A stretch of 64,000 bases of DNA from Chitinophagaceae bacterium. Lineage in GTDB: Bacteria > Bacteroidota > Bacteroidia > Chitinophagales > Chitinophagaceae. The notes below the pieces were generated by a model. The model searched no databases. It had not been told where the DNA came from and saw only the letters and a list, made by a program, of their open reading frames with translations. Both the position numbers and the translations under genes were made by a program. The stretch's first letter is position 1; each line of letters opens with the position of its first letter. Positions 30,027 through 32,904 of this stretch are shown here, piece by piece. The DNA is taken from positions 62,001 to 126,000 of the forward strand of contig JAFMJI010000002.1 in NCBI GenBank assembly GCA_017853575.1, given 5' to 3'.

Positions 30027-32849
30027 TTACTTGCTGAGATGCATACTTCTTTCTTTGTACAAAGTTCTGAAATATGGGTCTTGTAAGTCCTTTACAAAGC
30101 GGATCGCTTCCCCTGTTGATTTCATTTCAGGTCCAAGCTCTTTGTTAACTCCTGGGAATTTTTCAAAACTGAATACTGGTTCTTTGATGGCAAATCCATT
30201 TAGTTTTTTCTCAAATTTGAAATCAGTCAGCTTATGTGTTCCCATCATTACTTTGGTGGCGATATTCAAATAAGGAATTTGATATGCTTTGGCAATGAAA
30301 GGTGTTGTTCTGGAGGCACGTGGATTCGCTTCAATTACATATACTTTTCCAGCTTTGATTGCAAATTGAATATTGATCAGTCCAAGAATATCCAATGCCC
30401 TTGCAATTCTTTCTGCGTATGACTCCATGGTACTTACTTCCATCGGACTCAAATTGAATGCAGGCAATACCGCATTGCTGTCTCCGCTGTGAATTCCAGC
30501 TGGCTCAATATGTTCCATTACTCCCATTACATGGAAGTTTTCTCCATCGAAGATGGCATCAATCTCAGCTTCCTGACACCTGTCAAGAAAATGATCAATA
30601 AGAATTTTATTTCCAGGAATATGTTTCAATAAACTTACTACGGCAGATTCAACCTCCTCATCATTGATGACAATTCTCATTCTTTGTCCACCTAATACAT
30701 ATGACGGCCTCACCAACACTGGGTAACCTACTTTATTTGCTACTTCCACTGCTTCATCTACTGTAAATGCAGTTCCATATTCAGGATAGGGAATTTCAAG
30801 GTTTTTCAACATGTCACTGAACCTTCCTCTGTCCTCCGCAATATCCATATTGTCATAAGAGGTACCAATGATTTTGATTCCCTTCTTGTGTAATTTTTCT
30901 GCAAGCTTCAACGCAGTTTGACCGCCCAATTGAACAATTACTCCTTCAGGTTTTTCATATTCAATTAACTCCCAAAGGTGTTCCCAAAATACAGGTTCGA
31001 AATACAATTTGTCTGCAATGTCGAAATCTGTTGAAACGGTTTCAGGATTGCAGTTCACCATAATGGCTTCATAACCACATTCCTTGATAGCCAACAAACC
31101 ATGTACACAGCAATAATCAAATTCAATTCCCTGTCCAATTCTGTTTGGTCCAGATCCAAGCACAATAATTTTCTTTTTATCGCTGACCTTGCTTTCATTG
31201 GTTCCCTCGTTTTCAAAGCTGCTGTAGAAATAAGGTGTTTTTGCTTCAAATTCAGCAGAGCAAGTGTCTACCATTTTATATACTCTCTTGATACCTGCTG
31301 CCTTCCTCTTTTCATACAGATCTTCTTCTGTGCCATCCTGCATGATCTTGCAAATTTGTTCGTCGCTGAAACCATGATGCTTTGCTTTCTTTATCAATGC
31401 GATTGGCAATGAGTCGAATTTATATTTTGCAATTTCTTTTTCTACATCGACAATTTTTTGGATTTCATAAATAAACCATGGATCAATTCGTGTTGCCTGA
31501 CAAATGGTTTTTACACTGATGCCCATCATCAGTGCATCCTTTATTCGAAATATTCTGTCCCATTTGGGTGTTTTCAAATATTCAATGATCTCGTCAGCAT
31601 GCATCATGCTTTTACCGTAATAACCCAACCCAACTGCATTGTTTTCGAGACTCTGACATGCCTTCTGTATTGCTTCAGTGAAACTTCTACCAATCGACAT
31701 CACTTCACCAACAGATTTCATTTGCAGACCCAATGTGTCATTCGCACCTTTGAATTTGTCAAAATTCCATCTTGGAACTTTTACAATTACATAATCGAGT
31801 GCAGGTTCAAAATATGCAGAGGTTGTTTTTGTGATTTGGTTTTTAAGTTCATCAAGTGTAAAGCCAAGCGCAAGTTTTGCAGCAATTTTTGCAATAGGAT
31901 ATCCAGTTGCTTTAGATGCAAGTGCTGAAGATCGGCTTACCCTGGGGTTGATTTCAATCGCGATGATTTCTTCTGTTTCTGGGTTTAATGCAAATTGAAC
32001 GTTACATCCTCCAGCAAAATTGCCAAGATTGCGCATCATGCTGATGGCCGTATTTCTCATCAGCTGAAATGCGGTATCACTTAAAGTCATTGCAGGTGCA
32101 ACCGTGATGGAATCACCTGTGTGCACACCCATTGGATCGAAATTCTCTACTGTACATATAATCGCCACATTGTCTTTTGAATCTCTCAGCAATTCCAATT
32201 CAAATTCCTTCCATCCCAGTACTGCTTTTTCAACCAATACTTCATGAATGGGGGATGCATTCAATCCTCTGTTCAATGCTTCATCTAAAAATTCTTTGCT
32301 GTGTACAAATCCACCTCCTGTACCTCCAAGTGTAAAAGAAGGTCTGATTACCAGTGGAAATCCAATTTCCTGTGCAAACTCTTTTCCTTCCAAAAATGAA
32401 TTGGCGGTTTTTGCTGTTGCCACAGGAATATTCATTTCAATCATCCATTGACGGAACAACTCTCTGTCTTCCGCCTTATCAATTGCCTTGATGTCAACAC
32501 CAATGAGCCTAACATTGTATTTCTCCCATATTCCTAATTCCTCTGCTTCTTTGGCCAAATTCAATGCAGTTTGTCCACCCATGGTTGGCAAGACTGCATC
32601 AATTTGATTCTCCTTTAGAATCTGTTCAATGCTTTCAACCGTGAGCGGTAAAAGATAAACCCTGTCCGCCATCATGGGGTCGGTCATAATGGTTGCAGGA
32701 TTCGAATTGATCAAAATCACTTTCACACCTTCCTCTCGAATACTTCTTGCTGCTTGTGAACCCGAATAATCAAACTCACAGGCTTGTCCAATTACAATCG
32801 GACCAGAACCGATGATGAGCACTGAGCGGATGGAAGTATCTTTTGGCAT
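30027..32849 (-). CDS. carB: Carbamoyl-phosphate synthase large subunit, lacking the allosteric domain
   Basis: A 940-residue CarB that makes carbamoyl phosphate from bicarbonate, ammonia (from CarA) and two ATP for arginine and pyrimidine synthesis. Two homologous halves each carry a biotin-carboxylase-like N fold (GSGPIVIGQACEFDYSG; GSGPNRIGQGIEFDYC) and an ATP-grasp (RPSFTLGGTGGG; RPSYVLGGQRM). The protein ends about 130 residues earlier than enterobacterial CarB (1073 residues), so the C-terminal MGS-like domain that binds UMP and ornithine is missing. carA is not in the window. The leader has an unusual hairpin described separately. Confidence 0.96.
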   Translation of the reverse strand: MPKDTSIRSVLIIGSGPIVIGQACEFDYSGSQAARSIREEGVKVILINSNPATIMTDPMMADRVYLLPLTVESIEQILKENQIDAVLPTMGGQTALNLAKEAEELGIWEKYNVRLIGVDIKAIDKAEDRELFRQWMIEMNIPVATAKTANSFLEGKEFAQEIGFPLVIRPSFTLGGTGGGFVHSKEFLDEALNRGLNASPIHEVLVEKAVLGWKEFELELLRDSKDNVAIICTVENFDPMGVHTGDSITVAPAMTLSDTAFQLMRNTAISMMRNLGNFAGGCNVQFALNPETEEIIAIEINPRVSRSSALASKATGYPIAKIAAKLALGFTLDELKNQITKTTSAYFEPALDYVIVKVPRWNFDKFKGANDTLGLQMKSVGEVMSIGRSFTEAIQKACQSLENNAVGLGYYGKSMMHADEIIEYLKTPKWDRIFRIKDALMMGISVKTICQATRIDPWFIYEIQKIVDVEKEIAKYKFDSLPIALIKKAKHHGFSDEQICKIMQDGTEEDLYEKRKAAGIKRVYKMVDTCSAEFEAKTPYFYSSFENEGTNESKVSDKKKIIVLGSGPNRIGQGIEFDYCCVHGLLAIKECGYEAIMVNCNPETVSTDFDIADKLYFEPVFWEHLWELIEYEKPEGVIVQLGGQTALKLAEKLHKKGIKIIGTSYDNMDIAEDRGRFSDMLKNLEIPYPEYGTAFTVDEAVEVANKVGYPVLVRPSYVLGGQRMRIVINDEEVESAVVSLLKHIPGNKILIDHFLDRCQEAEIDAIFDGENFHVMGVMEHIEPAGIHSGDSNAVLPAFNLSPMEVSTMESYAERIARALDILGLINIQFAIKAGKVYVIEANPRASRTTPFIAKAYQIPYLNIATKVMMGTHKLTDFKFEKKLNGFAIKEPVFSFEKFPGVNKELGPEMKSTGEAIRFVKDLQDPYFRTLYKERSMHLSK

Positions 32850-32870
32850 GTTTTAGGATTGAAGGGACAC

Positions 32871-32896
32871 AAAAAAACCGGGTATTACCCGGGGGG
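32871..32896 (-). promoter_or_regulatory. 5'-terminal hairpin with U-run in the carB leader
   Basis: On the minus strand CCGGGT-AAT-ACCCGG (32892-32878) forms a 6-bp GC-rich stem, followed at once by seven T (32877-32871) and then the carB ATG 21 nt later. The run of six C (32896-32891) between the -7 element and the hairpin places the predicted transcript start within or next to the stem. It has the form of an intrinsic terminator or attenuator; its regulatory role is inferred. Confidence 0.6.
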
Positions 32897-32904
32897 CAAA
32901 GGTA
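32897..32904 (-). promoter_or_regulatory. Predicted sigma-A -7 element (TACCTTTG) of carB
   Basis: Exact TAnnTTTG match on the minus strand, 47 nt before the carB ATG and directly before the C-run and hairpin. Confidence 0.55.

Follow-up and report, generated by a model that had tools for sequence, protein, structure and literature searches.

The window analysed here is a stretch of 64,000 nucleotides from a Chitinophagaceae genome of 2.3 Mb. It contains carB, the gene for the large subunit of carbamoyl-phosphate synthase (940 aa; 30027..32849, minus strand, with the ATG at 32849), and the short leader of this gene holds a hairpin followed by a run of T residues. This arrangement raises the question of what a terminator-like structure does at the very beginning of the carB transcript. 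The gene upstream of carB is divergent (33247, plus strand), so there is no upstream gene in need of a terminator in the carB orientation, and read on the other strand the hairpin has no T-run after it. We hold with high confidence that the block regulates carB from within the initially transcribed region. Judged from its sequence, the hairpin probably lets the cell switch off carB when pyrimidine nucleotides are plentiful.

Layout of the leader and the predicted start

The minus strand was read directly, and the layout claimed in the preliminary description, from the -7 element through six C, hairpin and seven T to the carB ATG, was found at the positions it had given. The -7 element TACCTTTG (32897..32904) fits the TAnnTTTG consensus of Bacteroidota sigma-A promoters, and this box is shared with relatives. 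It is followed by the C6 run (32896-32891), whose last two C residues are stem bases, so that four bases separate the element from CCGGGT-AAT-ACCCGG (32892-32878). The 5' arm CCGGGT (32887..32892) and the 3' arm ACCCGG (32878..32883), both read and folded and both kept in relatives, enclose the loop AAT (between 32887 and 32883). A T7 tract (32871..32877) abuts the stem, and the remaining 21 bases of the leader (32850..32870) consist of GTGTCCC and then an A/C-rich stretch. The stem has six base pairs, five of them G-C, with T7 directly on its 3' side; this is the G+C-rich hairpin and U-tract of a terminator, with a shorter stem than the 9-bp stems of the two convergent terminators in the window. 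Direct reading of this carB leader revealed no Shine-Dalgarno-like sequence. The folding energy of the 66-nt leader is unexceptional in single-sequence folding (z -0.65), so single-sequence statistics are insufficient and the case for the hairpin rests on comparison among relatives.

In Flavobacterium psychrophilum, where sigma-A starts have been mapped, TAnnTTTG occupies -12 to -5 (PMC9723704), and the carB +1 would therefore be the fifth base after TTTG, namely the C at 32892, which is also the first base of the stem. This prediction is carried over from another class of Bacteroidota. Since 86% of the starts in Bacteroides thetaiotaomicron are purines (PMC7366714), a start region made up of pyrimidines and then GGG stands out as unusual. 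The first purine of the start region is the G at 32890, or +3, and the carB start region may thus offer RNA polymerase a choice between C at +1 and G at +3.

Conservation, register and gene specificity

We collected 89 carB leaders by means of the CarB protein, that is, independently of the element, and scored all of them with one script. The named relatives belong, like the window's genome, to the Chitinophagaceae (Bacteroidota). A leader was assigned to the hairpin class (class II) if a stem of at least 5 bp began at positions 4-7 after TTTG and was followed by T4 or more. This class includes 37 of the 89 leaders, and position 5 is the first stem base in every one of them. Since the register of the stem is exact while loops (3-8 nt) and leaders vary in length, the spacing between promoter and stem is constant to the nucleotide, and the first stem base coincides with the predicted +1, in agreement with the earlier proposal of a hairpin at the 5' terminus. 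The start region is constrained as well: in 61 of 61 leaders, positions 4 and 5 are C or T, position 6 is always C, and positions 7-9 are always GGG. The C-run had also been proposed as a functional part, and this did not hold up, because the six-C stretch is restricted to some genomes, relatives have GCGCT, GCACT, GCAAT, GCATC or GCTCT instead, and only Y-Y-C-G-G-G is kept.

The pairs of the stem differ in how often they have changed. The outer pair is C-G in 27 leaders and T-A in ten; this switch separates two clades, corresponds to about one event, and is the only variation within the otherwise invariant core. The sixth pair (C-G in 12, T-A in ten, A-T in six and T-G in one) has changed several times. 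The T-run is T6-T8 throughout the CCGGG group and T4-T6 in the TCGGGC group, and it has been lost with the hairpin kept in G344, G193, G389 and, within the window's genus, G032. Thus the earlier suggestion that the U-run may form a terminator stands as far as the tract abuts the stem and is conserved, and is weakened by its shortening or loss in part of the TCGGGC clade. A 5'-terminal hairpin could also act on mRNA lifetime, by protecting the 5' end or, when absent, exposing it, with or without a choice of start and with the T-run incidental. The conservation of the hairpin exceeds that of the T-run, and its position is exact at the predicted 5' terminus, as such a role would have it; a stabiliser, however, needs neither a constant YYCGGG start, nor restriction to carB, nor T6-T8 in the whole CCGGG group, and we consider this explanation rather unlikely.

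The strictness of the association with carB was assessed at several taxonomic scales. The broadest scan covered 84,980 species, each represented by a single genome (257 Gb in all), with the pattern TTTGCNNYCCGGGN{3,9}CCCGGTTTTTT, and it returned 47 matching stretches, 46 of them directly before carB in Chitinophagaceae, with 51-167 nt between the start of the block and that of carB. The lone other match is in the unrelated alphaproteobacterium Cognatishimia; about 0.4 matches would be expected by chance, an estimate that assumes uniform bases, so a single stray match agrees with chance. A looser pattern that allows T at the first stem base matched in 24 of 149 family genomes, once in each and always at carB, and its control gave no match in the same 149. 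The carB placement at L351 and L363 was deduced from alignments that begin inside carB at the matching distance. Among 41 genomes of the window's genus, the pattern TTTGNNNNCCGGGNNNNNCCCGGTTTT was found exactly once in 24, with no match for the reversed pattern in the 41, and the matches that were retrieved lead into the carB start. The other TAnnTTTG sites in the 47 fetched stretches have no such hairpin (0 of 256). Order-level matches outside the family were set aside, as they resemble ordinary terminators or chance.

The preliminary description had named a lack of conservation of the C-run and stem in close relatives as its refutation. This outcome did not occur, as 21 of the 25 scored carB leaders of the genus keep the strict hairpin and T-run at the same place. 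The strict form is absent from the other four: L018 (G032) has the hairpin without a T-run, L020 (G033) has the hairpin with a long nested insert, and L023 (G021) and L024 (G007) have neither form. The carB layout is thus genuine and very unlikely to be a product of chance.

A pattern search of the window's genome found no copy of the element on other genes and no second perfect site. This bears on the view that the near-perfect inverted repeat at the predicted +1 is a palindromic DNA operator for a repressor bound at the start site. The symmetry of the repeat is what such an operator would show, but the half-sites stand 3 to 8 bases apart where a fixed spacing would be required, and the outer pair shifts from C-G to T-A jointly on both arms. 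In G033, moreover, an insert with a stem of its own occupies the loop while both outer arms and T7 are kept. Together with the single occurrence of the perfect site in the genome, these features make an operator highly improbable.

Control by a PyrR protein or by a ribosome, as in the attenuators of Bacillus pyr operons or E. coli pyrBI, was considered as well. The window's genome encodes a PyrR homologue directly upstream of pyrB (L219, G000:C14; 1997-2527 minus and 1012-1947 minus), which is the point in favour of this possibility. Against it, the comparison with Rfam gave no match of the leader to a family of pyrimidine type up to E 5, including the PyrR-binding motif, and the leader has no room for a leader peptide. 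Furthermore, the CCGGG group has no consistent alternative helix that could act as a competing antiterminator, as shuffled downstream sequence mostly pairs equally well. We regard an attenuator of this kind as highly improbable. The pyrB leaders in the window's genus have neither the hairpin nor AATTTG.

One candidate alternative structure was noticed in the TCGGGC clade only (L330, L333, L335, L339-L341, L343, L344), where leaders with the loop GTTGA also share a conserved block further downstream, GCTCA[T/G]CGC. This block could pair with the loop and the 3' arm (GCGTTGAGC); leaders with other loops are without it.

A second start form at carB and carA

Relatives without the hairpin often bear AATTTG or GATTTT at the same place, as E. 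coli pyrBI and carAB do, the start of pyrBI being AATTTG. Within the set of 89 carB leaders, 33 have RRTTT at positions 4-8 and no hairpin, typically as TTTTGCGCAATTTGTTTTT. The literal pattern TTTGCGCAATTTRTTTT was searched in 99 family genomes and matched 23 times, 17 times before carB, four times before carA and twice in unrelated sequence. Under a slightly looser rule, a purine-purine-pyrimidine-T-T start is present at the same place in 21 of 40 carA leaders, and the RRTTT start at background TAnnTTTG sites amounts to 4 of 352. The carA leaders (L206, L210, L213, L214, L246-L285) often have purine-purine-T-run starts even where the carB of the same genome has the hairpin. In the window's genus, carA has neither a hairpin nor an RRTTT-type start.

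The two forms repeatedly replace one another on the CarB tree: the hairpin label requires 11 changes, at least eight of which are forced by well-supported branches. Such interchange is what would be expected of functional equivalents, and the data point to a family-wide rule under which carB, and often carA, may begin with nucleotide-sensing sequences in two interchangeable forms. The hairpin with its T-run could instead be a fixed weakening of carB expression or a mere relic, with no regulation at all. So simple a structure might well act constitutively; its specificity for one gene across the family, its repeated gain and loss against a second start type and its exact register argue against this, and we find a constitutive or vestigial role very unlikely.

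Two genomes, G413 and G304, carry TTTGCCCGGTTTTTT, which corresponds to the 3' arm and T-run with no 5' arm, and they group with the hairpin-bearing G380. This form suggests how one start form might turn into the other. It is also one of the features that would suit a start-anchored terminator sensing UTP, in which slippage or pausing in U7, a remnant of the RRTTT start that relatives have, would decide between release and read-through with no start switching. The retention of the T-run in nearly every form is a further point for such a device. On the other side, at least 15 bases separate the predicted start from the U-tract, which is not the case at known UTP-sensitive starts, and one clade has its T-run shortened to T4-T5 with the YYCGGG start invariant; UTP sensing of this kind therefore seems to us doubtful. 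As for the window's own carB, it lacks the purine start with three or more U immediately following that UTP-dependent reiterative initiation would use.

Feedback through the leader had been linked to the loss of the MGS domain from CarB. No match to this domain was found by Pfam in the CarB of the window, so its absence was borne out. It is not a sufficient explanation for the leader, because CarB proteins of similar length occur in relatives that have the RRTTT form and no hairpin. We also observed that much of the family encodes CarB in two unlinked genes, one for about residues 1-548 and the other for about residues 548-940, for example G203:C3:1010784-1012427 and G203:C3:1357300-1358481. 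Genes for the N-terminal half often keep an AATTT-type start, and those for the C-terminal half have similar TTTTGCGCAAT promoters.

Proposed control of carB and comparison with known systems

The reading we prefer is a start switch coupled to a terminator, a cis-acting pyrimidine-feedback device that would lie within the first ~22 transcribed bases of carB. The start site, the switching between starts, termination and CTP as the signal are the steps that we infer. Initiation at the C (32892) would give pppCCGGGU-AAU-ACCCGG-U7, with the hairpin at the extreme 5' end and flush with the U-tract. A 3' end 7-8 nt past the stem would correspond to intrinsic-terminator geometry, and an RNA of ~22 nt would be released, predicted as a ~22-23 nt species 5'-CCGGG...CCCGGUUUUUUU. 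When CTP is scarce, RNA polymerase would start two bases further on, at the G (32890); the hairpin would then lack its two outer C-G pairs, the stem would stand two bases off the U-tract, and transcription would read through into carB. In the CCGGG group, the mean predicted stem energy is -8.85 kcal/mol for the C start versus -4.85 for the G start. The weakening is smaller in the TCGGGC group, where a G start takes the predicted energy from -10.9 to -8.3. High CTP would thus shut carB and low CTP would open it, which is the direction in which feedback should act on a pyrimidine gene, here one that encodes an enzyme devoid of the MGS domain that binds UMP. We advance the full mechanism of start switch and terminator tentatively, as a real possibility that falls somewhat short of an even prospect.

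The pyrC and pyrD genes have a pyrimidine at the canonical start and a G two bases later, and the outer pairs of their 5' hairpin need the C start. The carB block is similar in its sequence layout, with a pyrimidine at the predicted canonical start and G two bases downstream, and the outer pairs of its hairpin likewise depend on the C start, as the predicted loss of stability in the CCGGG group indicates. Bacteroidota mostly lack Shine-Dalgarno sites. In pyrC, the shift of start at high CTP blocks ribosome binding (cited in PMC4491880), the hairpin covering a Shine-Dalgarno site. At carB, in contrast, there is no Shine-Dalgarno sequence to occlude and the distance from hairpin to ATG is variable (~50 to 170 nt). 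Unlike in pyrC and pyrD, the carB hairpin is followed by a U-tract, which makes termination the likelier output, and the promoter is of the Bacteroidota type. The likeness to pyrC and pyrD drawn in the preliminary description therefore stands for the 5' hairpin, for the start with Y and then CGGG in all members and, beyond these, for a U-tract that abuts the stem; it fails for Shine-Dalgarno occlusion. On its layout, the carB block would work most like the start-site selection of pyrC and pyrD, yet we do not count it as a member of that class because the Shine-Dalgarno part is absent.

Two further systems invite comparison. The E. coli carAB promoter P1 starts GUUUGC and is under UTP-sensitive control (PMC6245113). 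Purine-U starts of this sort are the basis of the UTP-dependent reiterative transcription, or slippage, of E. coli pyrBI, carAB P1, codBA and upp. With these genes the family shares the pathway, and carB and carA of relatives bear an equivalent start (AATTTG, GATTTTTTG) at the same place; the window's carB differs in having no purine-U3 start and a U-tract displaced behind the hairpin. In Bacillus subtilis pyrG, CTP-sensitive reiterative transcription adds extra G at the start and so prevents attenuation (PMC4448216). As in pyrG, nucleotide sensing at the first bases would decide the action of a leader terminator at carB. Unlike in pyrG, the predicted carB start is a pyrimidine and is at the same time the first base of the hairpin, and the C-run varies in length among relatives.

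Our verdict is that the layout is confirmed, that the earlier interpretation is upheld in part and strengthened, and that carB probably has start-region pyrimidine control in a new version, specific to this gene in one bacterial family. Literature combining reiterative transcription, Bacteroidetes and pyrimidine was not found in a search that left most subscription journals outside, and novelty is meant as a statement on the literature searched. In its most specific form, the proposal describes a single ~22-bp cassette in which the starting base (C or G) would decide the completeness of a +1 terminator. CTP:GTP would set carB with no protein, ribosome or ligand-binding RNA, and over evolutionary time the cassette and a UTP-slippage start would be able to replace each other at one promoter; we regard this version as possible, with more doubt than belief. 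If the switch is true, it would amount to a metabolic sensor of very small size that works without protein, and to a convergent case of start-region control outside Proteobacteria and Firmicutes. It would also provide a natural evolutionary series of slippage start, displaced U-tract and start-anchored terminator. The carriers include the cultured genera Flavisolibacter, Cnuella and Pollutibacter, which makes the carB switch directly testable.

The sequence RTGYCC after the carB T-run was considered as a specific signal and rejected, since, of the 68 further hairpin-T sites in these loci, 7 have a similar tail. Ordinary intrinsic terminators of the family thus show RTGYC after the T-run above expectation (7/68; L067, L071, L112, L277 and other loci).
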